Below are positions 7,465 through 33,650 of a stretch of 51,420 nucleotides of DNA, in pieces (position 1 is the first letter of the stretch; every line of letters begins with the position of its first letter). This DNA is from Acetobacteraceae bacterium. Lineage in GTDB: Bacteria > Pseudomonadota > Alphaproteobacteria > Acetobacterales > Acetobacteraceae. The position numbers and the translations under genes are program-made. The stretch is taken from contig JAIYDD010000201.1 of the NCBI GenBank assembly GCA_027487675.1, positions 1 to 51,420 of the forward strand, in the 5' to 3' direction. Under the pieces are notes generated by a model. The model was not told the origin of the DNA and did not search any database. It saw only the letters and a list, made by a program, of their open reading frames with translations.

Positions 7465-7659
7465 GGCCCATCCCCTCCGCCCGCGCGGGTTGCGCGGCCA
7501 CGGCATGGTCGCCGCGCGCCGCGCCACCGTTACGGACGCGGCGGTTAGGCTTGGCGCAACCCTTCGCGGCTAGAACGGGTCCCAGGGCAGGAGGCCCGCA
7601 CGCTCTCGCGCCGCGCCGACGGGCAGGATCCCCGGGCGCCGCCATCGCACGGGGTCGGC

Positions 7660-8463
7660 ATGCGGATCGCCATCTGCGTCAAGAAGGACATCCACGGCCT
7701 GCTCGCAGCGCGCAACCTGGCCGAGCGGCTGGCCTTCGCCGAGCTCGGCTTCTTCTGCAGCGTCAAGACGCGCGACGCGGAGAACGAGGTGCCGGCGCTG
7801 CGGCTCATGAAGCTGCTGGAACGCGACGTCGCCATCGACACCTTCTGCACGCTGGAGGAGCCGCGCCCCGGCTTCCCGCACCCGGAGCGCTGGACGGCGC
7901 TGGCCGACATGAAGGCCGATGGCGGCGCGGCGCGGCTGCTGGCCTTTCGGCCCGACATCGTTGTCTCCGCCCGCTTCAGCCTGATCTTCCCCCAGCGCGT
8001 GATCGACGCCGTGCCGCGCGGCATCGTCAACGTCCACCCCGGCGCGCTGCCGGGCTATCGCGGCCTGTTCGCGCCCTTCTGGCAGATCCTGAAGCGCGAG
8101 AGCGAGCTGGGCTGCACGGTGCACATGGTGGACCGCGGCATCGACACCGGCCCGGTGCTGGGCGTGGCGCGCGTGCCCTTCGACCCGACGCGGTCGCTGA
8201 TGGCGCACACCGCGGCGCTCTATCGCGGCGGCGTCGCCATCGCGGCGGAGGCGGTGGCGACGCTGGCGCGCGGCGGCCAGCCGCCGACGACGCAGCAGCC
8301 GGCAGGCGGCGCCTATTACCGCTTCCCCGCGCCGGCGGACTTCGCCGCGCTGCCCGTGCCCATCGTCACCGCGCAGGATTTCGCGGAGGTGCTCGCGGCC
8401 GCCTTCCCGCCGCGCGCGGAAGCCAGCGCCGCCGGCGTCGCGTCGCGGAGGGCGGCGGCATGA
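7660..8463 (+). CDS. formyltransferase-fold protein at the head of the sensor/export block
   Basis: A 267-residue protein with the formyltransferase N-terminal fold (methionyl-tRNA formyltransferase, PurN and sugar formyltransferases). It carries NVHPGALPGYRG (Asn124, His126) and VDRGIDTGPVL (Asp162), which match the catalytic Asn-His-Asp triad. It lacks the C-terminal tRNA-binding domain of Fmt, so initiator tRNA is unlikely as substrate. Relatives formylate amino sugars or other amines using 10-formyl-tetrahydrofolate. Its stop overlaps the next start (ATGA at 8460-8463), so it is probably translated with the sensor genes. What it modifies here is unknown. Confidence 0.85.
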   Translation: MRIAICVKKDIHGLLAARNLAERLAFAELGFFCSVKTRDAENEVPALRLMKLLERDVAIDTFCTLEEPRPGFPHPERWTALADMKADGGAARLLAFRPDIVVSARFSLIFPQRVIDAVPRGIVNVHPGALPGYRGLFAPFWQILKRESELGCTVHMVDRGIDTGPVLGVARVPFDPTRSLMAHTAALYRGGVAIAAEAVATLARGGQPPTTQQPAGGAYYRFPAPADFAALPVPIVTAQDFAEVLAAAFPPRAEASAAGVASRRAAA

Positions 8464-9242
8464 GCTTCGGCGTCTCCTTCGCCTCGCGGCTCGGCGGCGT
8501 GCTGGCGGGGATGCTGCTGCTGGGCTGCGCGCTGGCGGCGGGGCTGAACCACCTGAAGTTCGAGCGCATGCTGATGGAACAGCAGGCCAAGGTGCTGGAG
8601 ATCCTGGCCGCCGACCTCGGCAACACGGTGGAGAACAGCCTCGCACTGGGCGTGCGGCTGGCCGGCGTGCCGGGGGCGCAGGCGCTGCTGGAACGCAGCC
8701 GCGCGGCGGAGACGCTGATCGGCGGCCTGGCCATCGCGGATGCGGGCGGCGTCGTGCTGTTCGACACCGACCGGCAGAACCTGGGCACCACGCTGCCGCG
8801 CGCGGTCTTCGACCCGCATGGCGCCGCCACGCCCTGGCGCTTCCGCGACCCGGCCGGCTACGGCATCGGCGCGCCCATCGTGAACGCGTTCGGCCAGCTG
8901 GAAGGCGCGGTGGTGCTGCGCTACGGCCGCGCCGCGGTGGACGAGAAGCTGGTGGCGGCGCTGCTCGCCATGGTGCAGTCGGGCCTGCTGGCGCTGGCCA
9001 TCGCCGTGCCGCTCGGCGCGGCGCTGATCCACCTGGTCACGCGCCCGACGCGGCGGTGGTTCGCCGCGGTCGAGGCCGCGATGCAGCCCGGCGCGGCGCG
9101 CGAGCCGCTGGCGGAGGGGCTGCAGCAGGCGATCGCGGAGGCCGATGCCGTGCTGGGCGATGCCGAGCGCCGGCTGGAGGCGATCGCCGCGACGGTCGCC
9201 GAGCACAGCGCGGACGCGCAGCCGGAGGCGGTCGCCCAATGA
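8460..9242 (+). CDS. membrane sensor with periplasmic Cache-like domain, no output domain
   Basis: A 260-residue protein with one transmembrane helix near residues 8-28 and a second near 168-192. Between them is a periplasmic region with the pattern ENSLALGVRLAG...IGGLAIADAGGVVLFDTDR, common in Cache/PAS-like sensors. After the second helix only a short Ala/Glu-rich helical tail (about 68 residues) remains; no kinase, cyclase or methyl-acceptor domain can be seen. It overlaps the genes before and after it by ATGA, implying translational coupling. It is probably a ligand sensor acting through the following protein (inference). Confidence 0.78.
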   Translation: MSFGVSFASRLGGVLAGMLLLGCALAAGLNHLKFERMLMEQQAKVLEILAADLGNTVENSLALGVRLAGVPGAQALLERSRAAETLIGGLAIADAGGVVLFDTDRQNLGTTLPRAVFDPHGAATPWRFRDPAGYGIGAPIVNAFGQLEGAVVLRYGRAAVDEKLVAALLAMVQSGLLALAIAVPLGAALIHLVTRPTRRWFAAVEAAMQPGAAREPLAEGLQQAIAEADAVLGDAERRLEAIAATVAEHSADAQPEAVAQ

Positions 9243-11266
9243 GCCCGGATCGCCGCCTGGTCGGCAGCGTCGTCGCCGTCGCGGTGGTGCTGCTGACGCT
9301 CGCCGTCGGCTTCGTCTCCGCCACCGCGCTCCGCAGCTTCGAGGCGGAGCTGCGGCCGGAGCTGGAGCGGGAAGCCACCATCGTCGGCAGCATCGGCGCG
9401 CGCACCTTGCAGCGGGCGCTGGATCTCGGCGTGCCCTTCGACGGGCTGACGGGGCTGGACGAGTATCTCGGCAGCCTGCTCGCGACGCGGGAAGGCGTCG
9501 CCTACCTGATGCTGACCGATGCCGCGGGCCGCGCCGTCGCCGCGGCGGGCGAGGTGCCGGCGGAATTCGCCGGGCTGTCGGCGGGCACGCCACCCCCGGG
9601 CCGGGGCGCGGTGATGCGCGCGCTGGGGGCCAGCTACGACGCGGCGCTGCCGCTCCACGAAGCCGGCGCGCTGGCCGGCTGGCTGCATGTGGGCATCGCG
9701 CGGGCGCGGCTGGACACCGCGCTGGACGACATGCGCTGGGACGTGCTGATCGTGCTGCTGGTGGTGCTGCTGGCCACCGCGGAGGGGCTGCGCTTCATCC
9801 TCTCCCGCCTGGTCGAGCAGCCGATCGGCATGGTGCGGCGCCTGCAGCAGCGGCTGGCCGCCGGCGACTGGACGGCGCGCGCACCGGGCGACCTGGGTGC
9901 CGAGGCCGGCAGCGTCGCGCGGCACTTCAACGTGCTGGTGCGCCGGATGAACGACCGCTGGGACCGGCTGTGCTGGCTGGCCGCCGAGAGCGGCGCCGGC
10001 CGGCGCGCGGCCGCGGTGCAGGATGCGGTGCGCGACAGGCTGCGCTTCGGCGCAACCTCGGTGCAGGACGCGCTGGCCGGCGGCGGTGCCTCGGCGCGGC
10101 TGCCGCTGTTCCTCTTCGTCTTCGCCGAGCAGCTCTCCACCTCCTTCAACCCGATCTTCGCGATGGAGCTGGCCGAAGGGCGGGGCGGCGTGCTGGGCGC
10201 GGCGCTGCCGCTGGTGGCCTTCGTCGCCGCGGTCGCGCTGCTGACGCCCTGGGGCGGGGAGATGGTGGCGCGCCACGGCCCGCGGCGCGCGCTGCTGCTG
10301 GGCCTGGTGCCGGCGGCGGCGGGGCATGTGGGTGCCGCGCTGGCGCAGGACCTGGTCACGCTGTCGCTGGCGCGCGCGGTGTGCGGGGCGGGCTATGCCA
10401 TCGTCACCATCGCCTGCCAGGTGCAGCTGGCGCGGGAAGCGCCGAGCGGGCGCGTGGCGCGCAGCCTGGGCGGCTTCACCGCGGCGGTGATGACGGGCGC
10501 GGTCTGCGGCACGGCGATCGGCGCCGTGCTGGCCGATCGGCTCGGCTTCCGCCTGACCTTCGCGCTGTCGGCCCTGCTGCTGCTGGGCATCGCGCTGCTG
10601 GCCTGGCGCTGCATGCCGGCCGGCGGCGCGGGCGAGGAGAAGCGGATGGGCGTGTGGCAGGGCGCGCGGGCCGCCTTCGCCGATCCGCACTTCGTGCTGC
10701 TGGTGGTGCTGGCCGCCATTCCGGCCAAGGTGCTGCTGGGCGGCTTCGTCTTCTTCCTGGCGCCGCTGGAGCTGCGGGAGCTGGGGCTGAGCCAGGCCGC
10801 CATCGGGCGCAACGTGATGCTGTATGGGCTGTGCATGCTGCCCGCCATCGTGGTCGGCGCCTGGATCGCCGACCGGACGGGGCGGGGCGGGTCGCTGATC
10901 GTCGTCGCGGGGCTGCTCAACGGCGCCGGGCTGATGCTGCCCTTCTGGCTGCCCGCCGATGTGGCGCTGCCGGTGGCCATCGTCGCGACCGGCGTGGCGC
11001 AGGGGCTGGCGGCGGCGCCGATGCTGGCGCTGATCCCCTCGCTGGCGCTGCGCCCGGGCGCGCCGACCTCGGCGGCGATGATGAGCTTCCTGCGGCTGGC
11101 GGAGCGGCTGGGCAGCGTGGTCGGGCCGCCGGCCGCGGCGGCGCTGCTGGCGGCGGGCGGGGGGGTGCAGGCGATGCTGGTGCTGGGGCTGGTCTCCGCG
11201 GCGACGGCGCTGGGCTATGCGCTGGCGCTGGGGCTCGGGCGGATGCGCAGGGAGGCCGTGGCATGA
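9239..11266 (+). CDS. periplasmic sensor-HAMP-MFS transporter fusion
   Basis: A 675-residue protein. TM1 near 8-30 is followed by a Cache-like periplasmic region (SIGARTLQRALDLGVPF, then AYLMLTDAAGRAVAAAGEV). TM2 lies near 167-187 and a HAMP linker follows (EQPIGMVRRLQQRLAAGDWT ... DLGAEAGSVARHFNVLVRRM). From about residue 283 comes a complete major facilitator: motif A copies GGEMVARHGPRRALLLG and GAWIADRTGRGG, and about 12 hydrophobic helices to the end. HAMP normally passes signals to cytoplasmic output domains, so feeding an MFS is unusual. Genes on both sides overlap it by ATGA. It may be a transporter gated by a periplasmic signal, or the MFS fold may itself be a sensor. Confidence 0.88.
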   Translation: MSPDRRLVGSVVAVAVVLLTLAVGFVSATALRSFEAELRPELEREATIVGSIGARTLQRALDLGVPFDGLTGLDEYLGSLLATREGVAYLMLTDAAGRAVAAAGEVPAEFAGLSAGTPPPGRGAVMRALGASYDAALPLHEAGALAGWLHVGIARARLDTALDDMRWDVLIVLLVVLLATAEGLRFILSRLVEQPIGMVRRLQQRLAAGDWTARAPGDLGAEAGSVARHFNVLVRRMNDRWDRLCWLAAESGAGRRAAAVQDAVRDRLRFGATSVQDALAGGGASARLPLFLFVFAEQLSTSFNPIFAMELAEGRGGVLGAALPLVAFVAAVALLTPWGGEMVARHGPRRALLLGLVPAAAGHVGAALAQDLVTLSLARAVCGAGYAIVTIACQVQLAREAPSGRVARSLGGFTAAVMTGAVCGTAIGAVLADRLGFRLTFALSALLLLGIALLAWRCMPAGGAGEEKRMGVWQGARAAFADPHFVLLVVLAAIPAKVLLGGFVFFLAPLELRELGLSQAAIGRNVMLYGLCMLPAIVVGAWIADRTGRGGSLIVVAGLLNGAGLMLPFWLPADVALPVAIVATGVAQGLAAAPMLALIPSLALRPGAPTSAAMMSFLRLAERLGSVVGPPAAAALLAAGGGVQAMLVLGLVSAATALGYALALGLGRMRREAVA

Positions 11267-12246
11267 TCCGGCGTCGGCACGCCATCCTGGCCGCGGCGGC
11301 GGCCGCGCTGCCCCTGCCGGCCGTCGCGCAGGCACGGGTGCATCGCATCACCATGCTGCTGTTCCGCGGCTGGGAGGAAGCCTGCGACGGCTTCCGCGAC
11401 CATTTCGCGGCGCGCCGCATCCCGGTGGAGCTGACGGTGCGCGACGTGGCGCAGGACCTGCGCCGGCTGCCGGCGATGGTCGCCGAGATCCGGCAGGCCA
11501 AGCCCGACCTCGTTTATACCTGGGGCACCTCGCTGACGATCGCGGCGCTCGGGCCGTGGGACGCGCCGGACCCGGCGCGGCACATCACCGGAATACCCGT
11601 GGTGTTCAACATCGTCACCGATCCCGTCGGCAACCGCGTGATCAAGTCCAACGAGGATCCGGGGCGGGCGGTGACGGGCACGGAATACATCGCCTCGGTC
11701 GAGGTGCAGCTGCGCGCCATGGCGCGCTATCGCGGCTTTGCGCGGGTGGCCGCGATCTTCAACCCGAACGAGCGCAACTCGCTCTCCGTGGTGGCGCAGA
11801 TGCGCGCGCTGCTCGGCGAAGGGCTGGTGGAGCTGCCGGTGGCGCTGGACGCGTCGCGCCGGCCGGACCCTGCCTCCATCCCCGCTCGCGTCGCCGCGGC
11901 GCGGGAGGCCGGCGCGGACTGGCTCTACATCCCGCCCGACACCTTCCTCAACGACCATCGCGCGGTGCTGACGGGCACGGCGCTGGAGCACCGCCTGCCC
12001 TGCTTCGCGGCGACCGAGCGCTTCGTGCAGTTCGCCGAAGGGCTCGCCGGGCTGGTCAGCCGCTACTACAGCGTCGGCGCCTTCACCGCCTACAAGGCCG
12101 AGCAGATCCTGCGCGAGGGCCGCGCGCCGCAGACGATCCCGGTCGAGACGCTGACGCGCATGTCCTTCCTGGTCCGCATGGACACCGCGCGCCGCCTGCC
12201 GATGTACCCGCCCGTCGGCCTGCTGCGCGTGGCGGAGACGGTCTGA
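11263..12246 (+). CDS. orphan periplasmic binding protein, ABC_sub_bind (TrpX-like) family
   Basis: A 327-residue protein with an N-terminal signal peptide (RRHAILAAAAAALPLPAVAQA). The body matches the family of periplasmic binding proteins related to TrpX/YtxM-type aromatic-compound binders: ITMLLFRGWEEACDGF, PDLVYTWGTSLTIAAL, ITGIPVVFNIVTDPVGNRVI, RVAAIFNPNERNS and the C-terminal YYSVGAFTAYKAEQIL. No ABC permease or ATPase gene is nearby. Instead it sits between sensor membrane proteins and a phosphatase with its own periplasmic domain. That context suggests it hands a bound small molecule to a sensor rather than to a pump (inference). Confidence 0.88.
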   Translation: MIRRRHAILAAAAAALPLPAVAQARVHRITMLLFRGWEEACDGFRDHFAARRIPVELTVRDVAQDLRRLPAMVAEIRQAKPDLVYTWGTSLTIAALGPWDAPDPARHITGIPVVFNIVTDPVGNRVIKSNEDPGRAVTGTEYIASVEVQLRAMARYRGFARVAAIFNPNERNSLSVVAQMRALLGEGLVELPVALDASRRPDPASIPARVAAAREAGADWLYIPPDTFLNDHRAVLTGTALEHRLPCFAATERFVQFAEGLAGLVSRYYSVGAFTAYKAEQILREGRAPQTIPVETLTRMSFLVRMDTARRLPMYPPVGLLRVAETV

Positions 12247-12250
12247 CGCC

Positions 12251-14299
12251 ATGCTGCTGCGCTCCCGCATCCTGCTTCTCTTCGCGCTGGCGACGCTGCT
12301 GGTCGCGGCCTCGGTCGGCGTGCCGGCCTGGCTGGTGTTGCGCGACAGCCAGGACCGCGCGGCCGCGCTGCGCGCGGAGCTGCAATCGACGCGCCTGGCC
12401 GAGGCGGTGGACCGCGCCGCGGCGCCGCTGGTGGCGGCGCTGCGCGTCGCGGCCGGCGATGCCGCGCTGGCCGCGGCGCGCGCGGCCGGCGACGAATCGG
12501 CGCTGCGCCAGCGCCTGGCCGCGCTGCGCGCCGAGCTGGGCCTGCAGGGCCCTTCCGCGCGGCTCGATCTGGTGGGCCCGCAGGGGCAGCTGCTGGCCGC
12601 GGCCCCGGCCGCGGCCGAGCCGCTGGCCAGCGGCGCCGCGGCGCTGCAACGCGAGCTGCGCGCGGACGGCACCGCGGCGGGCTTCGAGGCGATGCCGGAA
12701 GGCGGCATGCTGCTGGTCGCCAGCCTGCGCAGCGGCGCGGGCGACCTGCTTTCGGCCAGCATGCCGGCCGAGGCGGCGCTGGAGGCCATCGCGGCGCAGC
12801 TCGGCGCCGGGCTGCTGATGCGCGACCGCCAGGGGTCCAAGCTGCACGCCACCGACCCCGTGCTGCGCGAGGCGCCGGCGGAGCGCAGCACGCTCGACAT
12901 CGGCGGCCGGGTGTTCCGGCTGGAGGCGACGCCGCTCGACAACTCCGCCGGCGCCCGCGTGGCGCAAGTCCTGGTGCTGGCCGATGCGACCGCGGAGACG
13001 CAGGCCTACAGGCTGCTGCTGCTGCTGGCCGGCGCGCTGCTGGTGGTGGCGGGCGCGGTCACCTGCGGGCTGCTCTATCGCACCATCCGCGGCGCGATCG
13101 ACCCGCTGAGCGAGCTGGCGCGCGCGCTGCAGGCGGTGGCGGGAGGCGACATCTTCGCCTCCGCCGCCATCCAGCCGCGGCGCGACGAGGTGGGCGCGAT
13201 CCAGGCGGCGCTGGAGGCGCTGCGCAGCAACACCCTGGCGCTCGACCGGCTGCAGACGGGCAACCGGCTGGCGGCGCTGCGCGAGCGCGCGCTGATCGGC
13301 CAGCAGATCGCGCGCCTGACCGACGTGCTGGACGGGCCGGAGCGGCAGGAGATCCTGGGGCTTCTGGAGGGCGACGGCGCTGCGCTCGGCCCGGCCTTCG
13401 CGCGACTGGCCGGGCATGTGGTGCAGCAGCACCGCGCCATGGCCGACCTGCTGGAGGAGCGCACGCGCGACCTGGCGCTGGTCCGCCAGGCGCTGGAGGA
13501 GCGCAGCCAGCTGAACCGCATGCGGGAGGAGCTGGATGTCGCACGCCGGCTGCAGCTCTCCTCCGTCCCTACCGCCTTCCCGCAGCTGCCGGCCTTCCGC
13601 CTGCACGCCGCGATGGTGCCGGCGAAGGAGGTCGGCGGGGACTTCTGCGACTTCGTCATGCTGGACGAGCATCGCCTGGCGCTGCTAATCGGCGATGCCT
13701 CCGGCAAGGGCGTGGGTGCTGCGATCTTCATCGCGATGGCGCGCAGCCTGCTGCGGGCCGCGATCGGCCGCGGCGCGACGCCGGCCGAGGCGCTGGCGCA
13801 GGCCAACGACGTGCTGGCCGCCGACAATCCCACCATGATGTTCGCGACCGTCATCGTCGCCGTGCTGGATTGCCGCACCGGCGTGCTGACCTACGCCAAT
13901 GCCGGCCACAACGCGCCGCGCCGCCGGAGCGCGAATGGCGAGGAGGCGGAGATCCCGGTGCAGCCCGGCATCGCGCTCGGCGTGATGGACGGGATGGTCT
14001 TCGACGACCAGACCATCGCGCTCGCGCCCGAGGACATGGTGCTGATGTTCACCGACGGGGTGACGGAAGCGGTCGGCCCGGGCGAGACGATGTTCGGCGA
14101 TGCGCGGCTGTCGGCGATCGTCGCCGATGCGCGGCTGGCCTCGCCGTCGCAGCTGGTCGAGGCGGTGGCGCGACAGGTGGAAGCCTTCGCCGACACCGAG
14201 CCGCAGGCCGACGATATCACCATGCTGGCGCTGCACTGGCGCGGCGCCGCGCCGGCCGCCCCGGCCGGTCAGCGAGAGGAGAAGATGGCATGGACGTGA
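12251..14299 (+). CDS. membrane-bound SpoIIE/RsbU-type PP2C phosphatase with HAMP
   Basis: A 682-residue protein. TM1 is near 7-28, a periplasmic region of about 220 residues follows, TM2 is near 254-276, then a HAMP region and coiled coil to about 430. The C-terminal PP2C-type phosphatase shows the metal-binding motifs VGGDFCDF (about 461), GDASGKGV (about 480), MFTDGVTEA (about 600) and ADDITMLAL (about 654). Family members dephosphorylate STAS-domain anti-anti-sigma factors. The next two genes are exactly such a STAS protein and an HATPase, overlapping or adjoining it, so it is the input phosphatase of a partner switch. It follows the binding-protein gene by four bases. Confidence 0.95.
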   Translation: MLLRSRILLLFALATLLVAASVGVPAWLVLRDSQDRAAALRAELQSTRLAEAVDRAAAPLVAALRVAAGDAALAAARAAGDESALRQRLAALRAELGLQGPSARLDLVGPQGQLLAAAPAAAEPLASGAAALQRELRADGTAAGFEAMPEGGMLLVASLRSGAGDLLSASMPAEAALEAIAAQLGAGLLMRDRQGSKLHATDPVLREAPAERSTLDIGGRVFRLEATPLDNSAGARVAQVLVLADATAETQAYRLLLLLAGALLVVAGAVTCGLLYRTIRGAIDPLSELARALQAVAGGDIFASAAIQPRRDEVGAIQAALEALRSNTLALDRLQTGNRLAALRERALIGQQIARLTDVLDGPERQEILGLLEGDGAALGPAFARLAGHVVQQHRAMADLLEERTRDLALVRQALEERSQLNRMREELDVARRLQLSSVPTAFPQLPAFRLHAAMVPAKEVGGDFCDFVMLDEHRLALLIGDASGKGVGAAIFIAMARSLLRAAIGRGATPAEALAQANDVLAADNPTMMFATVIVAVLDCRTGVLTYANAGHNAPRRRSANGEEAEIPVQPGIALGVMDGMVFDDQTIALAPEDMVLMFTDGVTEAVGPGETMFGDARLSAIVADARLASPSQLVEAVARQVEAFADTEPQADDITMLALHWRGAAPAAPAGQREEKMAWT

Positions 14300-14622
14300 C
14301 CACCGAAGCGCGCGGCGAAGCCGTGATCCACCGCGTCAGCGGCCGCATCGACACGGGCACCAGCACCGAGGCGGAGAAGGCGCTGACCGCGGAGCTGCGC
14401 CAGGGCGGGCGGGTTGCCATCGACATGACGGCGGTGCCCTACGTGTCCTCGGCCGGGCTGCGGGTGGTGCTGATGGCGGCGAAGCTCGCCAAGGCGAATC
14501 GCGGCGCGATGTCGCTGTTCGGCCTGCAGCCGATGGTGCGCGACGTCTTCGCCATGTCGGGCTTCGACCGGATGGTGACGATCGCGGAGGACGAGGCCGC
14601 GGCGCTGGCTGCCCTGCGCTGA
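14290..14622 (+). CDS. STAS-domain anti-sigma factor antagonist
   Basis: A 110-residue single STAS domain of the RsbV/SpoIIAA type. VPYVSSAGLRVVLMAA carries the phosphorylatable serine (Ser53 or Ser54). The unphosphorylated form binds the kinase partner and frees that partner's target. An AG-rich ribosome-binding site (GAGAGGAGAAG) precedes the start, which overlaps the end of the phosphatase gene by ten bases. It is the middle player between the phosphatase upstream and the ATPase downstream. Confidence 0.95.
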   Translation: MDVTTEARGEAVIHRVSGRIDTGTSTEAEKALTAELRQGGRVAIDMTAVPYVSSAGLRVVLMAAKLAKANRGAMSLFGLQPMVRDVFAMSGFDRMVTIAEDEAAALAALR

Positions 14623-14623
14623 G

Positions 14624-15052
14624 ATGTCGGCGCTGACCCTGGAGTGCGGGCGCGACGAGGCGGAGGTCGCGCAGGCGCTGGACGCCATCGAGGCGCATCT
14701 GCTGGCGGCCGGCGCCGGGATGGCGGAGGCGCTGCAGTGGCGCCTGGTGGCGGAGGAGATCGTCACCAACGTCGCCCGCTGCGCCTGGCCCGAAGGGCAT
14801 GCCGGCCGCTTCCGCGTGGAGCTGGACGCCGCCGCGCGCGCGGACGGGCTGCGGGTGCGGATGACGACGATCGACGACGGCACGCCCTTCGACCCGACGG
14901 CGCAGGCGATGCCGGCGCTGGATGCCGGCGTGGACGACCGGCCGATCGGCGGCCTCGGCATGTTCCTGGTGAAGGAGATGACCGACGCACAGGCATATGC
15001 GCGCGAAGGCGGGCTGAACCGATTCAGCGTGGAGCGCCTGCTGCCGCGCTAA
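14624..15052 (+). CDS. RsbW-like anti-sigma/serine kinase (HATPase)
   Basis: A 142-residue GHKL ATPase-fold protein of the RsbW/SpoIIAB class. Visible boxes are EEIVTNVARCAWP (N box), TIDDGTPFDP (G1) and IGGLGMFLVKEM (G2). Such proteins phosphorylate the STAS partner and sequester a target, classically a sigma factor. No sigma factor gene is present in this window, so the target may be encoded elsewhere or be something other than a sigma factor. It starts one base after the STAS stop (TGAGATG), so the three partner-switch genes form one unit. Confidence 0.92.
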   Translation: MSALTLECGRDEAEVAQALDAIEAHLLAAGAGMAEALQWRLVAEEIVTNVARCAWPEGHAGRFRVELDAAARADGLRVRMTTIDDGTPFDPTAQAMPALDAGVDDRPIGGLGMFLVKEMTDAQAYAREGGLNRFSVERLLPR

Positions 15053-15061
15053 CCGCTTCGC

Positions 15062-15076
15062 AACCCGCACCGGGTT
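15062..15076 (+). promoter_or_regulatory. AACCCG/CGGGTT dyad upstream of the exported-protein gene
   Basis: AACCCG (15062-15067) and CGGGTT (15071-15076) form a perfect 6-bp dyad with a three-base centre, in the 121-base gap between the HATPase gene and the exported-protein gene. The blocks CGCAACCC and GGTTAGG both also occur near 7543-7562, just ahead of the formyltransferase gene, in swapped order. It could be an operator or a weak hairpin; there is no direct evidence for either. Confidence 0.3.
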
Positions 15077-15134
15077 AGGTCATCGGCATCCGCAGGAGGC
15101 GGCGTGTTGGGGACCGGACGGCATGACGCCACGC

Positions 15135-15167
15135 GGATCCCTGTCCACCACTGCCTACCAGGGATCC
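15135..15167 (+). promoter_or_regulatory. leader hairpin just before the exported-protein start
   Basis: GGATCCCTG (15135-15143) pairs perfectly with CAGGGATCC (15159-15167) across a 15-base loop. The 3' arm contains GGGA, the only Shine-Dalgarno-like bases close to the ATG at 15174, so folding would hide the ribosome-binding site. No T-tract follows, which argues against a terminator. If translation began at 15123 instead, the hairpin would lie in the coding region. Confidence 0.55.
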
Positions 15168-15173
15168 AGCAGA

Positions 15174-16352
15174 ATGTCCGTCACCGCCAACAAGCAGCTC
15201 GTCGAACTTGACGATGCCGTCCTCGCCTCGGTCGTGGGCGGCAGCGGCACCATCCAGTCGGGCGCCTCCGGCGCCGACAAGGACGATGACGACGGGCCGG
15301 AATACAGCGTCTCGGTCAGCGGTCCGGTGGTGATGTCGGGCGGCGTCGGCGTCAGCAAGACGGAGAGCGTCAGCACCAAGATCGGCGGCGTGGAGCTGAC
15401 CGGCCAGGCCGGCGTCTTCGCCGGCGCCAACTACGAAGCGACCAAGACGGGCGTCGGCGCGGGCGCCGGCGCCGGCGCCTTCGCCTCCGTCTCCGCCACC
15501 CACACCGAAGGCAACGTCACCACCACCGTCAAGGCCGAGACCGCGGCGGGCGCGATGGTCGGCGCGCAGGCGGGCCTCACCGGCGTGTCCGTCAACGGCG
15601 CGGTCGGCATCGGCGGCACGGTGAGCGTGACTGTCGAGACCGAGCACAAGCTGGGCGGCGGCGTGAACGCCAACACCAGCACCACCGTGGAAGCCGGCCT
15701 GCGCGCGGGCGCCGAGGGCCAGGCCTCCTACGGGCTGAACGGCGTGAAGACGGAAGGCGAGGTCTTCGCGGGCGCCTATTCCTCCGTCACCGGCTCGGCC
15801 ACCGTCGGCGGCAAGGGCGGCTCGGGCACCGTCACCGGCGGCTATGTCGATCCGGGCTCGGCGGGCGTCGGCGTCAACGGCCAGATGGCGATGGACAACG
15901 GCAAGATCACCGTCGGCCTGGGCGGCGAGGCGGCGATCGGCATCGGCGGCGTGAACCTTGGCGTCAGCGCGACCGTCGACACCAAGGTGGTGGGCGACGC
16001 CGCGGAGAAGGGCGCGGAGCAGACCAAGATCGCCGCTGAGAAGGCGGCCGCCGAGGCGCAGGCCGCCGCCGAGAAGGCCGCTGCCGCGAGCAAGGCCGCC
16101 GCCGAGAAGGCCGCCGCGGAGGCCAAGGCCGCCGCGGAGAAGTTGGCCGCCGATGCAAAGGCGAAGGCCGAGGCCGAGGCCGCCGCCGCGAAGGCTGCGG
16201 CCGAGAGGGCCGCCGCGGAAGCCCGTGCTGCCGCGGAGAAGGCCGCCGCGGATGCCAAGGCTGCGGCCGAGAAGGCCGCCGCCGACGCGGCAAAGCAGGC
16301 GACCAGCACGGCGAAGAGCGTGGGCCGGCGCATCCGCCGCCTGTTCCGCTGA
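15174..16352 (+). CDS. large secreted protein with double-glycine leader (predicted exporter cargo)
   Basis: A 392-residue protein. Residues 1-23 look like a double-glycine leader (ELDDAVLASVVGG: Leu at -7, Val at -4, Gly-Gly at -2/-1), the signal cut by C39 peptidases. Residues 24 to about 270 are rich in Gly, Val, Thr and Ala with alternating beta-type patterns and no Cys. Residues about 275-378 are a run of AAAEKAAAEAKAAAEK-type heptads, like the helical domain of TolA. The end is strongly basic (GRRIRRLFR). The HlyD/C39-ABC/ABC genes follow directly. The ATG at 15174 places the leader at the N-terminus; an in-frame ATG at 15123 is possible and has an AGGAGG 24 bases upstream. Function unknown; toxin, adhesin or matrix protein are all possible. 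Confidence 0.85.
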   Translation: MSVTANKQLVELDDAVLASVVGGSGTIQSGASGADKDDDDGPEYSVSVSGPVVMSGGVGVSKTESVSTKIGGVELTGQAGVFAGANYEATKTGVGAGAGAGAFASVSATHTEGNVTTTVKAETAAGAMVGAQAGLTGVSVNGAVGIGGTVSVTVETEHKLGGGVNANTSTTVEAGLRAGAEGQASYGLNGVKTEGEVFAGAYSSVTGSATVGGKGGSGTVTGGYVDPGSAGVGVNGQMAMDNGKITVGLGGEAAIGIGGVNLGVSATVDTKVVGDAAEKGAEQTKIAAEKAAAEAQAAAEKAAAASKAAAEKAAAEAKAAAEKLAADAKAKAEAEAAAAKAAAERAAAEARAAAEKAAADAKAAAEKAAADAAKQATSTAKSVGRRIRRLFR

Positions 16353-16359
16353 CCGTGAC

Positions 16360-16385
16360 GCGGGGCGCGCCTCCGCGCGCCCCGC
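16360..16385 (+). terminator. strong hairpin between cargo gene and exporter genes
   Basis: An 11-bp perfect stem, GCGGGGCGCGC (16360-16370) with its complement at 16375-16385, and a four-base loop CTCC, followed by a pyrimidine-rich stretch (CTTCCGCTTCCC). It starts eight bases after the cargo stop. It may act as a partial terminator or RNA 3'-end stabiliser, giving more cargo than exporter mRNA (inference). Confidence 0.6.
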
Positions 16386-16420
16386 CTTCCGCTTCCCGAC
16401 ACGCAGACGGATCGAGGCGC

Positions 16421-17749
16421 ATGGAAGATCCAGGCAAGCCGAAGCTGTTCCGCGCGGAGGCCGTCGCCTCCGCCACCTCCGTCACCTCGGTCGACGACGC
16501 GCTGGAGGTCGTGCGGCCGCCGCTGCTGACGCTGTGCGGCGTGCTTGGCGTGCTCACGGTCGGGCTGGTCGGCTGGTCGGCAGTGACCGACGTACCGGTG
16601 AAGGTGCATGGCCAGGGCATCCTGCTCTCGGCCGGCGGGCTGACCGACATCGTCTCCGACACCGAAGGCCGGGTGGTGGAGCTGGCGGTCGCGCCCGGCG
16701 ACATGGTGCGCGCGGGCAGCGTCGTCGCCGTGGTGGACCAGTCGGAGCTGAACCTGCAGCTCGCCGCGGCCCAGGGCGAGCTGAACGACGCGCAGGCCGC
16801 GCGGGCCGAGTTGCAGCGCTTCCATGCGCGCGAGGCGGAGGCCGATCGCGCCTGGCGCGCCGCGCGCGACGAGGGCCTGGCGCAGAGCCTGCGCGCCGCC
16901 GAGGAGCGGCTGCGCCTGCTGAGCGAGCGCGAGCTGGTGGTGCGCGACCTGGCGGACCGTTCGCTCGCCACGCGCGACCGCGCCATCAGCGCGCGCATCG
17001 AGCTGTTCGGCGTGCGCGACCAGATCGAGGGGCTGCGCAACGAGCGCCGCGTGCTGGAGATGGACGCGATGATGCGCCAGACCCAGCGCGAGCGCGACCT
17101 GCTGGCTACCGACCAGCGCGTCGCGAACTCCGAGCGCCAGGTGGCGACGCTGACCGATCGCATCCGCCGCATGGGCGCCGTCCGCTCGCCCTTCGACGGG
17201 CGCGTGGTGGAGGCAAAGGCGAATGTCGGCCAGGTGATCAGCCGCGGCGGTGCGCTGCTGACGCTGGTGCGCGCCGATGCCGATGCCGGCGCGGGGCCGC
17301 TGGTCGGCCTCGTCTATGTCGGCGCGCAGGACGGCAAGAAGCTGCAGCCGGGCATGGCGGTGGACCTCTCGCCGGCCACCGCGCCGTCGCAGGAATACGG
17401 CTATCTGCGGGGGCGCGTGCTGCGCGTGGCCGACACGCCGGCGAGCTCGGCCGGCATGTTGCGCACGCTGCAGAACGATGCGCTGGTCGCCGAGTTCCAG
17501 CGCGGGCAGCGCACGCTGTTCGAGGTGAACATCGAACTGCCGCGCGATGCCGCCGGGCGGCTGCACTGGTCGGGCGGCACCGGCCCCGCCTTCTCGATCG
17601 AGGGCGGCACGCCGGCTTCCATGCAGGCCACCGTGCGCCAGGTGCGCATGATCGCGCTCGGCCTGCCGGCGCTGCAGCGCTGGCTGGGCGAGGATGTGCG
17701 CGTGGTGCCAGAAGCCGCGGCGGCGACGCTGGGGCAGGTGCCGCCATGA
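16421..17749 (+). CDS. HlyD-family periplasmic adaptor of the NHLM-like exporter
   Basis: A 442-residue membrane fusion protein. A cytoplasmic start of about 35 residues leads to one transmembrane helix (TLCGVLGVLTVGLVGWSAV). A biotinyl-lipoyl half follows (GRVVELAVAPGDMVRAGSVVAVVD), then an Arg/Glu-rich coiled-coil hairpin (about 110-215) and the second lipoyl half (VRSPFDGRVVEAKANVGQVI). Beta-barrel parts complete it. Such adaptors bridge the inner-membrane ABC transporter to an outer-membrane channel; no TolC-like gene is in the window. The ATG at 16421 gives a normal N-terminus. Its stop overlaps the C39-ABC start by four bases. Confidence 0.93.
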   Translation: MEDPGKPKLFRAEAVASATSVTSVDDALEVVRPPLLTLCGVLGVLTVGLVGWSAVTDVPVKVHGQGILLSAGGLTDIVSDTEGRVVELAVAPGDMVRAGSVVAVVDQSELNLQLAAAQGELNDAQAARAELQRFHAREAEADRAWRAARDEGLAQSLRAAEERLRLLSERELVVRDLADRSLATRDRAISARIELFGVRDQIEGLRNERRVLEMDAMMRQTQRERDLLATDQRVANSERQVATLTDRIRRMGAVRSPFDGRVVEAKANVGQVISRGGALLTLVRADADAGAGPLVGLVYVGAQDGKKLQPGMAVDLSPATAPSQEYGYLRGRVLRVADTPASSAGMLRTLQNDALVAEFQRGQRTLFEVNIELPRDAAGRLHWSGGTGPAFSIEGGTPASMQATVRQVRMIALGLPALQRWLGEDVRVVPEAAAATLGQVPP

Positions 17750-19899
17750 TCGGCGCGGCGCGGATGCGCACGCCGACCATCCTACAGGTCGAGGCGGCGG
17801 AATGCGGCGCCGCGGCGCTCGGCATCGTGGCCGCCCATCACGGGCTGTGGCTGACGCTCGAGGACCTGCGCGCGCGCTGCGGCGTCTCCCGCGATGGCAG
17901 CAAGGCGCAGCACGTCGTCGCCGCGGCGCGCGAGCTGGGCTTCGAGGTGCGCGCCGTGCGCTGCGAGCCGGAGGCGCTGCGCGACGTGCCGGTGCCCGCC
18001 ATCCTGCATTGGGGCATGGACCATTTCCTGGTGCTGGAAGGCCGCAGCGGCGGGCAGTGGCTGCTGAACGATCCCGCCCGCGGCCGCCGCCGCGTCGATG
18101 ACCGGGAGCTGCGACGCCAGTTCAGCGGCGTGCTGCTGATGATGTCGCCAGGGGCGGCCTTCAAGCGCGGCGGCAGCCCGCCGAGCGCGCTGCGCGGGCT
18201 GGCGGAGCGGCTGCGCGGCGGGCGAACCGCGGTGCTGGTCGCCATCGGGATCAGCCTGATGCTGGCGTTGCCGGGCGTGCTGCAGCCGTCCTTCCGGCAG
18301 GTCTTCCTGGACCGCATCATGTCGGCCGGTGTCACCGCCTGGCTCTGGCCGATCGTGCTGGCGGTGCTGGCCGCCGGCGCCTTCGCGGGGCTGCTGACCT
18401 TCCTCCAGAAGACGGTGCAGCACAATCTCGAGACGCGGGTGGCCGCGCGCGGCGGCATCGAGTTCATGGACCGCGTGCTGCGCCTGCCGCTGGCCTTCTA
18501 CGGGCAACGCGGCGCGGCGTCCGTCGCCGACCGCGTGATGCTGAACGACCGCGTGGCCGGGACGGTGGCGCGGGAGATCGGCGGCACCATGCTCGCGCTG
18601 ATCATGGCGGCGATCTACCTGGCGGTGCTGGTGCTGTTCGACCTGCGGCTCGGGCTGGTCTCGGCCGCCGCGGCGGCGCTGCTCGCGCTCGCGCTGTGGC
18701 TGCTGTCGGCGCGGCTGCAGGAAGACCAGCAGCGGCTGATCAACGAGCAGGCGCTGGAGGATGCGGAGGCGAAGCAGGGCCTGCGCATGATCGACACCTA
18801 CCGCGCGGCCGGGACGGAGGCGCTGCTGTTCGACCGGCTTGCCGCGCGCCACGCCCGCGCGCTGAACCTGCGGCAGTCGCTGATGCTGGGCCGCGCGGCG
18901 TTGAAGCACCTGCCGGGGCTCGCGGTCGCCATCGCGGCGGCGGCGTCGCTCGGCATCGGCGGGCAGCTTGTCATCGACGGGCAGATGTCGATCGGCGCGC
19001 TGGTCGCCTTCCTGTTCCTCCAGGCGGCCTTCCTGGCCCCGGTCGGGCGGCTTGTGCAGCTCGGGCCGCGGCTGCAGGAGGCGGGCGCCAATCTGCGCCT
19101 GCTGGACGACACGCTGCGGCATCCGCTGTCGGAGGAATTCACCAAGCCGCCGCCGGCGCCGCGCCTGATCCGGCGCCTGCAAGGGCGCGTCGAGCTGCGC
19201 GACGTCACCTTCGGCCATTCGCGCCGCGCGGCGCCGCTGATCACCGGCGTCTCGCTGTCGCTGGAAGCCGGTGAGCGCGTCGGCATCGTCGGCGCCTCGG
19301 GCTCCGGCAAGTCCACGCTGGCGCTGCTGGCGGCTGGACTGCACGAGCCGTGGTCGGGCGAGGTGCTGCTGGATGGGCAGCCCTTGCGCGACATTCCGCG
19401 CGCCGTGTTGCGGCAATCCGTGCAGGTCGTCGACCAGCACGGCGCGCTGTTCTCCGGCACCATCCGCGACAACATCGCGATGTGGGACCCAACCGTGTCG
19501 GAGGAACGGCTGCACGCCGCGGCGCGCGACGCGGTCATCCACGACTTCATCCTGGACCGGCGCGAGGGCTACGCCTTCCAGGTCGCCGGCGGCGGCAGCA
19601 ACCTCTCGGGCGGGCAGCGCGCGCGGATCGAGATGGCGCGCGCGCTCGTGCAGGACCCGCGCATCCTGGTGCTGGACGAGGCGACCGCCGCGCTCGACGA
19701 CGCGACGGAGGCGGAGCTGCTGTCCAACATCCGTCGCCGCGGCGCCACCATGCTGGTGATCGCGCATCGCATGGCGCCGCTGCGCGACTGCGACCGCGTG
19801 GTGGTGATGGAACGTGGCCGCATCGTGGAGATGGGCCCGCCAGCGGAGCTGGCCGCGCGGCGCGGCGCCTTCGCGCGGCTGATGCTGGCGGAGGCCTGA
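17746..19899 (+). CDS. C39 peptidase-ABC transporter, NHLM bacteriocin-system type
   Basis: A 717-residue protein that cuts a double-glycine leader and exports the product. The N-terminal C39 peptidase has all expected residues: Gln14 and Cys20 in ILQVEAAECGAAAL, His93 in MDHFLVLEG, Asp109 in LLNDPARG. A six-helix ABC membrane domain follows (about 165-440). The ATPase has Walker A GASGSGKST (about 516-524), LSGGQ (about 620) and ILVLDEATAALD (about 640-651). An intact catalytic Cys distinguishes it from HlyB-type transporters of RTX toxins, which have a degenerate C39-like domain. Pairing with an HlyD protein and a second large ABC protein is the arrangement of NHLM/NHLP export loci. Confidence 0.94.
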   Translation: MIGAARMRTPTILQVEAAECGAAALGIVAAHHGLWLTLEDLRARCGVSRDGSKAQHVVAAARELGFEVRAVRCEPEALRDVPVPAILHWGMDHFLVLEGRSGGQWLLNDPARGRRRVDDRELRRQFSGVLLMMSPGAAFKRGGSPPSALRGLAERLRGGRTAVLVAIGISLMLALPGVLQPSFRQVFLDRIMSAGVTAWLWPIVLAVLAAGAFAGLLTFLQKTVQHNLETRVAARGGIEFMDRVLRLPLAFYGQRGAASVADRVMLNDRVAGTVAREIGGTMLALIMAAIYLAVLVLFDLRLGLVSAAAAALLALALWLLSARLQEDQQRLINEQALEDAEAKQGLRMIDTYRAAGTEALLFDRLAARHARALNLRQSLMLGRAALKHLPGLAVAIAAAASLGIGGQLVIDGQMSIGALVAFLFLQAAFLAPVGRLVQLGPRLQEAGANLRLLDDTLRHPLSEEFTKPPPAPRLIRRLQGRVELRDVTFGHSRRAAPLITGVSLSLEAGERVGIVGASGSGKSTLALLAAGLHEPWSGEVLLDGQPLRDIPRAVLRQSVQVVDQHGALFSGTIRDNIAMWDPTVSEERLHAAARDAVIHDFILDRREGYAFQVAGGGSNLSGGQRARIEMARALVQDPRILVLDEATAALDDATEAELLSNIRRRGATMLVIAHRMAPLRDCDRVVVMERGRIVEMGPPAELAARRGAFARLMLAEA

Positions 19900-19900
19900 G

Positions 19901-22729
19901 ATGGACACGCTGACGCCCATCGCCGCGGAGCTGGTCGACCCGCGCTTCCAGGCCGCCGCGCGCAGCCTGGCCGAGCCCGGCGCCTTCTGGGTGCTGGATG
20001 CGGGGGAGGCCGACATCTTCTCGGCCCAGGCGGGGGTCGATGAAGACGTCGCGCCGCCCGGGCCCTATCTGTTCATCGGGCGCATCGGGCCGGGCAGCCT
20101 GGTCGTCGGCCATGCGCCGGACCTCGAATGCCTGGTGATCCGCCCCGCCGCCGGGGCGCGGCTGCGCCGGCTGCCGCAGCTGGCCGCGCTGGGTGGCGCG
20201 GAAGCGCAGCTGGAGGCGATGCAGGGCTGGGCCGGCATGCTGGCGCATGGCCTCGGCGCGCGGCTCTGGCGGCCGTCCAACATCGACCGCATCGCGCGCC
20301 CGGGGCAGGTGCTGCGGCTGGCGGAACGGCAGAGCGCCACCGCGCGCGGCGTCGGCGCCTGGCTGCGGCTGCCCGAACAGGGCGCGATGCTGCTCGGCCT
20401 GGAACGCGTCTCGGGGCTGGTGCCGCTGCCGCCGCAGGGCTGGATCGTCGCCGTCGGCGCGCTGGAGGCCGCCGTGCCGGCGGCGCTGGCGCCGGAGGAG
20501 GTCGCGGCGGCGGCGGCCGGCATCGCGGCCTTCACCGATGCCTGCGTCGCCATGCTGCCCGGCCTGCGGAGCCTCGCCGAGATCGACGAGGGCGGGCGGT
20601 TGGAACAGCGTGGCCGCCAGGATGCGGAAGCCGCGCTGCGCACCGTCTCGCTCGCCGCGAAGCTGCTGCACGCGCCGCCGCCGAAGGCCGCCGCGCCGGA
20701 TCCCGCGCAGGCCGAGCCGCTGTTCCTGGCGATGGTCGCGGTGGCCAAGGCAGCCGGGTTGCAGGCGCGCGTCACGCGCCCGACGCGGCTGCGCGAGCAG
20801 GACATCGACACGCCGCCGACGATGGAGGAGATCGCCCGCGCCTCCGGCCTGCGCCTGCGCCAGTTGGCGCTGCCGGCGGATTGGTGGCGCCGCGGCCTCG
20901 GCCCGCTGTTGGCCGAGGAAGGCGGGGAGGCGGTGGCGCTGCTGCCCGATCACCACGGCTACATGGTGCAGAAGGCGGCGACGCCGCCGCGCCGCGTGAC
21001 GCCGGAGGTCGCGCAGGGCATCTCGGCCCGCGCCTGGACGCTGGTGGAACCGCTGCCGGACCAGCCGCTCGCCTGGTCGCAGCTGCTGCACTTCGTGAAG
21101 CCGGAGCCGACGGATCGCGCGCTGGCGCTGGCGGCGGCGATCATCGGGGCGTTCCTTGGCCTCGGCATGCCGGTGGCGATGTCCTTCGCCACCGGCTCGC
21201 TGATCCCGGGCGGCAACCGCCTCGGCCTGGTCGAGCTCGGCATCGCGCTGGCCTGCGTCGGGCTCGCGGCCTTCGTGGTGCAGATGGCGGGCGACATCGC
21301 CAGGCACCGCATGACGGCGAAGCTGGAAGCGCCGCTGCACGCCGCGCTGTGGGACCGCATGCTGCGCCTGCCCATCCCGGTGCTGCGCCGGCACACGCCG
21401 TCGGAGCTCGCCTCGCGGCTCGGCATCGCGCTGGCCGTGCCGCTGGGCCACAAGAACTTCCGGATGGCGATGATCGGGTCGGGCGCGACCTTCGCCGCCG
21501 CCATCGTCGCGCTGTTCCTCTACCATCCGCTCGCCGCGGTGGTGGCGCTGCCGGTGCTGCTGGCGCAGGCGGGCATCGCCGTCGCGGCGGGCATCCTGAA
21601 GGCGCGCGCGCATGCGGCGGGGAAGATGCAGTCGGGGGCAGCCGATGCGCTGGCGATCGAGGCGGTGTCGGGCATCACCAAGCTGCGGCTGGCGGGCGTG
21701 GAGCACCGCATGCTGGCCGCCTGGTCGGAACGCTTCCTGGCGATGCGGCAGAGCAAGCTGGCCGAGGAGCACATCGACACCTGGCAATCGGCCGCTTCCG
21801 CCGCGCTGACCTTCGTGGCGCTTGGCCTGTTGTTCCTGGTCTTCGCGGCCGGCGACGCCAGCACCAAGCCTGGGGTGATCGGCTTCCTGATGGCCTTCAT
21901 GATCGCCAACGGCGCAGCCAGCGGCCTCGGCGGCGCCTTCGCGACCTTCCACCCGCTGAACGCGATGCGCGACTATGCCGCGCCGCTGATGCAGAACCTG
22001 CCCGAGGCCACCGCCGGCCGCATCGATCCGGGCCGCCTGTCCGGCCGGATCGAGCTGAGCAACATCGCCTTCCTCTACGAAGGCGCGGAACAGCCGGTCT
22101 TCGCGGGGCTGAACATGCAGGTGGAGCCGGGCGAGTTCGTGGCCATCGTCGGCCGGTCGGGCTCGGGCAAGTCCACGCTGGTGCGGTTGCTGCTCGGCAT
22201 GGAGCGTCCCGCCTTCGGCAGCGTCGCCTATGACGGGCAGGACCTCGCCTCGCTCGACCTCGGCCTGCTGCGGCGTCGCATCGGCACGGTGCTGCAGGGC
22301 GCGACGCTGCCGCCCGGCGCGCTGATCGACACCCTACGCGGCTTCAGCGACGCGAGCGAGGCGGCGATCTGGAAGGCGCTGGAAGCGGCGGCCATCGCCG
22401 AGGATGTGCGCGCGCTGCCGCTCGGCCTGCGCACGCCGATCGCGGATGCGCAGCAGGTGCTCTCGGGCGGGCAGGTGCAGCGGCTGCTGCTGGCGCGCGC
22501 GCTGGTGAACAGGCCGGACGTGCTGATCCTGGACGAGGCGACCAGCGCGCTCGATCCCGCGACCCAGGCGGTGACGACGCGCACGCTGAACGCCCTGACC
22601 TGCACGCGCATCGTCATCGCCCACCGGCTGGAGACGATCCGCGGCGCCGACAGGATCCTGGTGATCGAGGCAGGGCGCGTGGCGCATGCCGGCACGCATG
22701 ACGAGCTGGTCGACGCCGGCGTGCTGTGA
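19901..22729 (+). CDS. second ABC transporter of the NHLM-like exporter, long N-terminal domain
   Basis: A 942-residue ABC protein without a C39 peptidase. The first 395 residues are soluble; part of the segment after residue 280 (GLQARVTRPTR ... GLRLRQLALPADWWRRGLGP) has the look of a degenerate peptidase-like or regulatory region, as in the NHLM ATP-binding/permease family. Six membrane helices lie roughly at 405-660. The ATPase has Walker A GRSGSGKST (about 751-759), LSGGQ (about 854) and LILDEATSALD (about 875-885). It starts one base after the preceding stop, so both ABC proteins are made together and may form a heterodimer (inference). Specific role of the N-terminal domain is unknown. 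Confidence 0.92.
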   Translation: MDTLTPIAAELVDPRFQAAARSLAEPGAFWVLDAGEADIFSAQAGVDEDVAPPGPYLFIGRIGPGSLVVGHAPDLECLVIRPAAGARLRRLPQLAALGGAEAQLEAMQGWAGMLAHGLGARLWRPSNIDRIARPGQVLRLAERQSATARGVGAWLRLPEQGAMLLGLERVSGLVPLPPQGWIVAVGALEAAVPAALAPEEVAAAAAGIAAFTDACVAMLPGLRSLAEIDEGGRLEQRGRQDAEAALRTVSLAAKLLHAPPPKAAAPDPAQAEPLFLAMVAVAKAAGLQARVTRPTRLREQDIDTPPTMEEIARASGLRLRQLALPADWWRRGLGPLLAEEGGEAVALLPDHHGYMVQKAATPPRRVTPEVAQGISARAWTLVEPLPDQPLAWSQLLHFVKPEPTDRALALAAAIIGAFLGLGMPVAMSFATGSLIPGGNRLGLVELGIALACVGLAAFVVQMAGDIARHRMTAKLEAPLHAALWDRMLRLPIPVLRRHTPSELASRLGIALAVPLGHKNFRMAMIGSGATFAAAIVALFLYHPLAAVVALPVLLAQAGIAVAAGILKARAHAAGKMQSGAADALAIEAVSGITKLRLAGVEHRMLAAWSERFLAMRQSKLAEEHIDTWQSAASAALTFVALGLLFLVFAAGDASTKPGVIGFLMAFMIANGAASGLGGAFATFHPLNAMRDYAAPLMQNLPEATAGRIDPGRLSGRIELSNIAFLYEGAEQPVFAGLNMQVEPGEFVAIVGRSGSGKSTLVRLLLGMERPAFGSVAYDGQDLASLDLGLLRRRIGTVLQGATLPPGALIDTLRGFSDASEAAIWKALEAAAIAEDVRALPLGLRTPIADAQQVLSGGQVQRLLLARALVNRPDVLILDEATSALDPATQAVTTRTLNALTCTRIVIAHRLETIRGADRILVIEAGRVAHAGTHDELVDAGVL

Positions 22730-33637: not shown

Positions 33638-33650
33638 GGGGGACACGCGC

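Follow-up and report, generated by a model that had tools for sequence, protein, structure and literature searches.

We analysed a window of 51,420 nucleotides from an Acetobacteraceae bacterium (GenBank assembly GCA_027487675.1), which is the whole of contig JAIYDD010000201.1 (G000:C214) of a 5.18-Mb draft genome. Eleven genes lie on its plus strand between positions 7660 and 22729, where a putative small-molecule sensing module stands directly ahead of an NHLM-type exporter and the likely cargo of this exporter. A first-pass annotation of the window had placed an array at these positions, which was confirmed, and had counted ten genes in it, which was wrong. The tight packing that it described ahead of the cargo gene was found as well, with junctions from the first gene (FMT) to the seventh (HATPase) that are either overlaps of 4-10 bases or gaps of 1-4 bases. 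The HATPase gene is then followed by 121 bp before the cargo gene, and 68 bp separate the cargo gene from that for HlyD.

FMT (7660-8463, +) encodes a protein that had been assigned a formyltransferase fold, and a match to PF00551 (72.4 bits) along with the N-x-H and D motifs supported the assignment. No NCBIfam equivalog model scored above its cut-off with FMT, and the best model, PurN, remained far below threshold. The best match of solved structure was a GDP-aminosugar formyltransferase (PDB 5vys, 56.8 bits); Met-tRNA formyltransferases, 10-formyltetrahydrofolate dehydrogenase and GAR transformylases came after it. The next two genes encode a stand-alone membrane sensor (SEN1, 8460-9242, +) and a 675-residue sCache-HAMP-MFS fusion (9239-11266, +), the parts of which are fused likewise in other loci. 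These had been described as two Cache-like sensors; two sensors are indeed present, but the Major Facilitator domain of the second (PF07690, 115.8 bits) had been overlooked. Pfam scores for the sCache_3_2 (25.5 bits, cut-off 28.4) and HAMP (21.1 bits, cut-off 25) regions of the fusion were both below threshold, and SEN1 had no match in Pfam. Alignment of a SEN1 profile with the N-terminal sensor of the fusion gave an hhalign probability of 98.6%, and SEN1 and the fusion sensor therefore look like paired paralogues.

The fourth gene (SBP, 11263-12246, +) encodes a substrate-binding protein of the ABC_sub_bind family (PF04392, 68.2 bits), and since the block contains no gene for an import permease or ATPase, its description as an orphan binding protein is apt. 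Three adjacent genes encode the components of the SpoIIE/STAS/HATPase switch that had been proposed: a HAMP-SpoIIE serine phosphatase (12251-14299, +; PF07228, 174.4 bits; HAMP 22.9 bits, cut-off 25), a STAS anti-sigma-antagonist-like protein (14290-14622, +; PF01740, 69.3 bits) and an RsbW-like HATPase_c_2 protein (14624-15052, +; PF13581, 64.9 bits), each with its catalytic motifs in the window. A pattern check over the block was positive for the formyltransferase N-x-H/D motifs, PP2C boxes, the STAS serine, the HATPase and C39 motifs, and the Walker A/B and ABC signature motifs of both ATPases.

The cargo gene (15174-16352, +) encodes 392 residues, of which the first 23 constitute a double-glycine (GG) leader, and it adjoins the C39 exporter, as expected of the large exported protein that the first-pass annotation had suggested. 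The exporter comprises an NHLM-type HlyD membrane fusion protein (16421-17749, +), a C39 peptidase-ABC exporter (ABC1, 17746-19899, +) and a second NHLM-type ABC exporter without C39 (ABC2, 19901-22729, +). NHLM likeness had been noted for all three; HlyD stood above the TIGR03794 cut-off (228.6 versus 156.2 bits), whereas both ABC proteins fell below their curated cut-offs. ABC1 scored 809.3 bits with TIGR03796 (cut-off 853.3), yet this was its best family by far, and ABC2 scored 559.5 bits with TIGR03797 over residues 272-939 (cut-off 709.4), again its best family, and carries an extra N-terminal region of ~270 residues. ABC1 also matches PF03412 (109 bits) and retains the C39 catalytic motif, in line with the active peptidase that had been suggested. 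Residues 12-712 of ABC1 align to PDB 4ry2 (PCAT1), and the two share the arrangement of C39, permease and ATPase; unlike that transporter, the system described here has an HlyD adaptor, a second ABC protein and a large protein cargo.

A search with HlyD over genome contigs, which finds close relatives only, identified seven loci. Six of them (L059-L064, HlyD identity 75-84%) belong to three Falsiroseomonas, two Roseomonas and one metagenome-assembled Acetobacteraceae genome, and all six hold FMT, SEN1, the MFS fusion, SBP, SpoIIE, cargo, HlyD, ABC1 and ABC2 in the order of the window. Among them are L061 of Falsiroseomonas stagni DSM 19981 and L064 of Roseomonas oleicola ROY-5-3, of which the latter retains both STAS and HATPase. 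The remaining locus (L065), a distant one from Ancylobacter with an HlyD of 43% identity, was without the sensor genes. The eleven-gene array is thus confirmed as real and beyond chance, six other genomes holding the block. Flanking genes are common to L059-L062 and differ from those of the window and of L064 (the flank of L063 was too short to judge), and the order of the block recurs in at least three flanking contexts. Protein distances on the sensor side, from FMT through SpoIIE, correlated with those on the exporter side, from HlyD through ABC2, at r = 0.99 over 21 locus pairs, and the trees of both sides contained the same two splits at a support of 1.000, one grouping L063 with L064 and the other setting these and the window apart from L059-L062. 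The distance correlation and the matching splits point to inheritance of the block, by and large, as a single unit. Conservation of the neighbourhood, which the earlier annotation had proposed to check, therefore holds in this lineage (seven of seven loci, window included) but is not general, as the two halves occur apart elsewhere.

The seven cargos are 370-449 residues long, and all have a 23-residue leader ending in VVGG. The VVGGS at the leader end is invariant in 7/7, and the sequence after the GG is also conserved. The body common to the seven begins with a Gly/Val/Thr-rich region of alternating small and hydrophobic residues, to which are added an Ala-rich tail that varies in length and an end rich in Lys and Arg. 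VVGG is found also in an orphan paralogue of 576 residues (L113:8039-9898, -, on contig G143:C27), which has a 300-residue Ala-rich tail and no NHLM-type HlyD match in the surrounding 19 kb. In all eight proteins the spacing of charges in the tail peaks at 11 residues, and cysteine is absent. The tail of the window cargo forms an Ala-rich helix of ~110 residues with this 11-residue repeat, and an AlphaFold model places the helix at residues 281-391, with block mean pLDDT of 77-90 over 291-380 and of 78 over 381-390, and with low confidence in the rest of the protein. The window cargo had no family match in Pfam, NCBIfam or PHROG, including the NHLP (TIGR03793) and Nif11 (TIGR03798) leader models of NCBIfam and the RTX nonapeptide repeat PF00353, and PDB and PHROG searches gave nothing usable. 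Members of the cargo family were present at three places in two genomes among 298 of the order (1e-8). The cargo looks like a whole protein, with a beta-rich head, an 11-residue-repeat helix and a cationic end. Sequence features of this kind would suit a surface or extracellular protein of head-stalk-cationic-tip form, and the exporter probably trims and ships one large protein.

The sensing module also occurs without the exporter. Of 385 genomes of the class, 31 contained relatives of SEN1, with the genome of the window included and some recognised by a short match only. At 1e-50 the profile of the MFS fusion matched 12 of 398 phylum genomes (in seven of these the match covered part of the model only), and at 1e-60 it matched 10 of 298 genomes of the order. 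We mapped 32 other sensor loci, namely one each from 16 of the 30 other SEN1 genomes, eight from the ten further phylum fusion genomes that had not yet been represented, and eight from the order fusion genomes, where G000 and G143 were the only ones left out. The profiles used for mapping were refined with the first 24 of these loci, the exporter loci and the window. These loci were chosen for SEN1 or the fusion, and so those two are expected in them; the stretches were at most ~20 kb long and several ended at contig ends. The MFS part was present in 30, the binding protein in 31, the SpoIIE phosphatase domain in 17 (with its N-terminal part only in two more), STAS in 13 and HATPase in 14. The Cache-HAMP-MFS/binding-protein/SpoIIE module recurs across the class, and some genomes from other parts of the phylum have it as well. 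Six loci of the same family (L146-L151) contain the seven genes from FMT to HATPase in window order and no exporter, and one of these, from the same genus, is 63-76% identical to the window. No NHLM-type HlyD was found near any of the 32 loci, some stretches being ended by contig ends.

A gene for a small-molecule enzyme lies beside the core in 21 of the 32 loci (FMT in eight, GNAT-like in eight, ATP-grasp types in five, PanB-like in two and alanine racemase in two), a count that was aimed at these types and may include chance neighbours. The GNAT-like fold was judged by eye, and two such proteins that were scanned had no Pfam match. None of these enzymes was seen in the other 11 loci. A permease of xanthine/uracil type lies beside FMT in L147-L149, assigned by Pfam in two and by sequence likeness only in L148, and a Ser/Thr kinase gene is located near the sensor operon in L147 and L151. 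Some loci contain two sensor sets (L091, L092, L096, L097, L098 and L099 in this group), and L091 and L092 have an N-terminal region of SpoIIE type in which the profile of the phosphatase domain found no match.

The exporter, in turn, occurs without the sensing module. The HlyD model was scanned against 299 genomes of the order, every one of which is listed under the same family or genus, and gave matches above cut-off at 22 places in 20 genomes. In the 21 neighbourhoods that were examined (the window and 20 others, leaving out G260:C591), the sensor genes together with this cargo were present at two, the window and G143:C26 (L055), where some stretches end at contig ends and sensor genes could be missed in L040, L042, L045 and L053, as coverage upstream of HlyD was under 4.5 kb there. 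L055 seems to be the same locus as L064. A SpoIIE/STAS/HATPase set near the exporter of L050 is on the other strand and, from its open reading frames (ORFs), looks like part of a chemotaxis-type array; it was not counted as the block. HlyD of L054 contains two in-frame TAG codons, and an NHLM-type ABC gene was not found there. The unit, its conservation and its modular origin are evident from these comparisons, and the joining of the sensing module to the exporter probably happened once, in the Falsiroseomonas group.

Six sister exporters have an HlyD 47-54% identical to that of the window (L041, L043, L045, L047, L048 and L050), and GG-leader proteins with RTX repeats are encoded near four of the six, on the exporter strand in L043 and L045 and on the opposite strand in L041 and L048. 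The ORFs are ~200-350 residues long (L041:11134-11763, -; L043:6909-7634, -; L045:462-1136, +; L048:10720-11793, -), with PF00353 checked for L041 and L043 only. A simple leader pattern identified two ORFs in L039 that run on for ~400 residues past the GG; those that it identified in L044, L046, L051 and L053 were short. A protein-sized GG cargo is therefore likely, from these ORFs, at several exporters of the family and would not be an oddity of the window.

Sequences upstream of FMT in the seven coupled loci could be aligned on a conserved CAACC dyad, with a short inverted repeat 21-26 bp further, and a similar arrangement is seen ahead of the cargo gene in several loci. The window has a 20-bp element, TTAGGC-N5-GCAACC, at 7543-7562 (+), upstream of FMT as the first gene, followed by a GGGC-N5-GCCC inverted repeat at about 7585-7597. 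A second copy of the element at 15047-15066 (+), which overlaps the end of the HATPase gene and lies 127 bp ahead of the cargo start, is followed by a CCGC-N5-GCGG inverted repeat at about 15090-15102. The likeness of the FMT and cargo elements had been noticed before they were scored. For the scoring, both strands of each locus (33,846-42,566 positions) were scanned in leave-one-out fashion, with a 20-bp matrix that was built on the FMT sites of the six remaining loci. The FMT site ranked first in six loci and second in the window. Ahead of the cargo gene, the best place within 330 bp ranked third in the window and second in L059, L060 and L062, and its position was -127 to -131 in these four loci and in L061. 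As a control, seven FMT operons without an exporter (L146-L151 and L086) were scored with a matrix of all seven sites, and the best place ahead of FMT ranked 10-325. The exact pattern derived from the two sites of the window, which by construction account for two of its occurrences, was present at three places in the 5.18-Mb genome, and a reversed control pattern at none. Support for the shared element is of moderate strength, and there is a moderate case for FMT and the cargo being co-regulated in the coupled version of the module.

Other forms of control were considered. A sigma-70 scan of positions 7400-23000 gave no promoter-like site, four terminator-like sites were found there versus a mean of 2.3 in shuffles, and an Rfam scan gave no matches. 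Control by CsrA/RsmA through hairpins with AGGA loops was ruled out, as CsrA (PF02599) was found in 0/7 genomes, while 3/14 control genomes were positive. The 20-bp element resembles a split CtrA-like site, TTAA-N7-TTAAC, and the third exact-pattern place in the genome precedes, by ORF reading, a FliF-like ORF. Control by CtrA is not claimed, as a looser form of the pattern also precedes ORFs that read as PufL-, PurE- and ribosomal-protein-like.

We consider it an even call that the eleven genes constitute a cassette in which a sensing module has been joined to an NHLM-type C39 exporter and its cargo, and that the cassette works in the following order. In the periplasm, SBP and the Cache-type sensors would bind a small molecule, either an amine or a compound resembling an amino acid, that may be made or modified by FMT and moved by the MFS domain. 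The SpoIIE phosphatase, as its family suggests, would then dephosphorylate a STAS protein, encoded locally or unlinked, leading to release of the partner of the HATPase kinase. The released regulator would act at the 20-bp elements before FMT and the cargo gene, raising the expression of both. Finally, the leader, motifs and linkage suggest that C39 would cut the cargo after Gly-Gly and that the exporter would secrete the head-stalk-cationic-tip protein. We infer, as the first-pass annotation did, that a periplasmic ligand controls production or secretion of the cargo, and cells may release it only upon sensing some small molecule.

A number of results weigh against this proposal. STAS is missing in L059-L062 (4/7 coupled loci) and HATPase in L060 and L062 (2/7), and SpoIIE stays at 79-81% identity in L059-L062 despite these losses. 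A complete local partner switch is therefore not required, and the switch, if it works in those loci, must use unlinked partners. Whole-genome searches revealed other copies of STAS in the L059-L062 genomes that are only distant (34-42% identity) and distant copies of HATPase (38-39%) in the L060 and L062 genomes. The proteins of the block include no sigma factor or DNA-binding regulator by Pfam and NCBIfam, the rest of the genome not having been searched for sigma factors. The trees of the two sides conflict on one split inside L059-L062 (supports of 0.972 and 0.976). The best place before the cargo gene was weak in L061 (rank 12), L064 (rank 18, at 302 bp) and L063 (rank 32, at 57 bp), and the coupled loci that were scored are related and hence not independent draws. 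The looser pattern occurred at 23 places in the seven genomes, six of them in this cluster, versus four for the control, and the two sites of the window do not themselves fit it. Structure prediction started from alignments of seven rows; the model of the MFS fusion was useless (mean pLDDT 38.4), and that of the cargo was poor overall (mean pLDDT 51.5), with a beta region of low confidence.

These data may also indicate that an independent sensor operon and an exporter with its cargo merely lie side by side and are co-inherited in one lineage. This explanation, which we regard as doubtful and yet the most serious of the rivals, would account for the occurrence of the halves apart (HlyD near 0/32 sensor loci, the module at 2/21 HlyD places), for the 121-bp gap at their junction, and for the loss of STAS from four loci and of HATPase too from two of these. 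It is harder to reconcile with the linkage, which is kept in 7/7 loci despite different flanks, and with the element before FMT, which is present in 7/7 coupled loci and does not stand out in the seven operons without an exporter.

Another possibility, which appears unlikely to us, is that the seven-gene module is an autocrine small-molecule signalling system of a kind not yet described, and that its density-type signal has been wired in Falsiroseomonas to the release of a large secreted protein. A swappable amine or amino-acid enzyme (FMT here; GNAT-like, ATP-grasp, alanine racemase or PanB-like elsewhere) would make the signal, the Cache-HAMP-MFS protein would export and sense it, SBP and the paired sensor would read it back, and the SpoIIE switch would report. 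We think it improbable that the phosphatase, STAS protein and kinase act instead on some other partner, such as the exporter, a cyclase or a sigma factor encoded elsewhere, so as to govern secretion or the general physiology of the cell and leave the cargo gene without control of its own. The lack of a sigma factor nearby and the unlinked STAS and HATPase paralogues kept in 7/7 coupled genomes are in keeping with such a partner, but the element common to the upstream regions of FMT and the cargo gene is not. Rhodobacter capsulatus offers an alphaproteobacterial precedent, for which PMC3999984 reports data in support of RbaV as the determining regulator and that a cognate sigma factor of RbaV/W/Y was not found.

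An ordinary NHLP/Nif11-type cluster that ships a processed, modified peptide, with FMT as tailoring enzyme, is very improbable in spite of the three-gene NHLM-type exporter, given a whole-protein-like cargo that matches neither leader model and is conserved after the GG, FMT that belongs to sensor operons without an exporter, a Pfam scan of 22 window proteins (a part of the genes of the window) that revealed neither LanM nor a cyclodehydratase, and GG-leader RTX proteins near four of six sister exporters. FMT as a tailoring enzyme of a ribosomally synthesised and post-translationally modified peptide was itself rejected, since six genomes have FMT at the head of a sensor operon with no exporter beside it.

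The exporter, the partner switch and the Cache sensors of the proposed cassette are of known kinds. The NHLP/N11P export cassette (PMC2887384) likewise consists of adjacent genes for an HlyD-like protein, a C39-ABC protein and a peptidase-less ABC protein, and relies on a Gly-Gly leader. Unlike in that cassette, the cargo here is large, with a short leader and no NHLP or Nif11 match, modification enzymes were not seen, and the exporter is coupled to a sensor/phosphatase operon. The phosphatase, antagonist and kinase correspond to the SpoIIE-type phosphatase, STAS antagonist and HATPase kinase of RsbU/RsbV/RsbW and RbaY/RbaV/RbaW (PMC3999984). They differ from these in the accompanying Cache-HAMP-MFS fusion, orphan SBP, second sensor and small-molecule enzyme, and in the absence of STAS or HATPase from some coupled loci. 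The periplasmic Cache-like sensor with HAMP is similar to Cache-domain receptors (PMC4822843), but its output here is an MFS transporter, which is not among the output classes that a passage of that paper lists; 'MFS', 'transporter' and 'major facilitator' have no occurrences in its main text. For the Cache-HAMP-MFS fusion, its module and the coupling to an NHLM-type exporter of a large protein, we found no description at the level of titles and abstracts, with most subscription journals outside the search.

The locus appears to be a natural and testable instance of a ligand-sensing switch that is tied to a C39/HlyD exporter and a large cargo protein. Identifying the ligand would reveal what such modules detect, and whether it is a product of the enzyme encoded with them. 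In this family, whole proteins and not only peptides appear to be the cargo of several NHLM-type exporters, and the range of uses known for the cassette would thereby become wider.

Downstream of ABC2, the window encodes a 662-residue RTX-repeat protein (22843-24831, +; PF00353) that has no GG leader at its start and does not cluster with genes of L059-L064. It is followed at 24844-35279 by an asparagine-synthase-like gene and genes for a UDP-glucose/GDP-mannose dehydrogenase and an oxidoreductase/hexapeptide protein, which suggest a polysaccharide-type cluster downstream.

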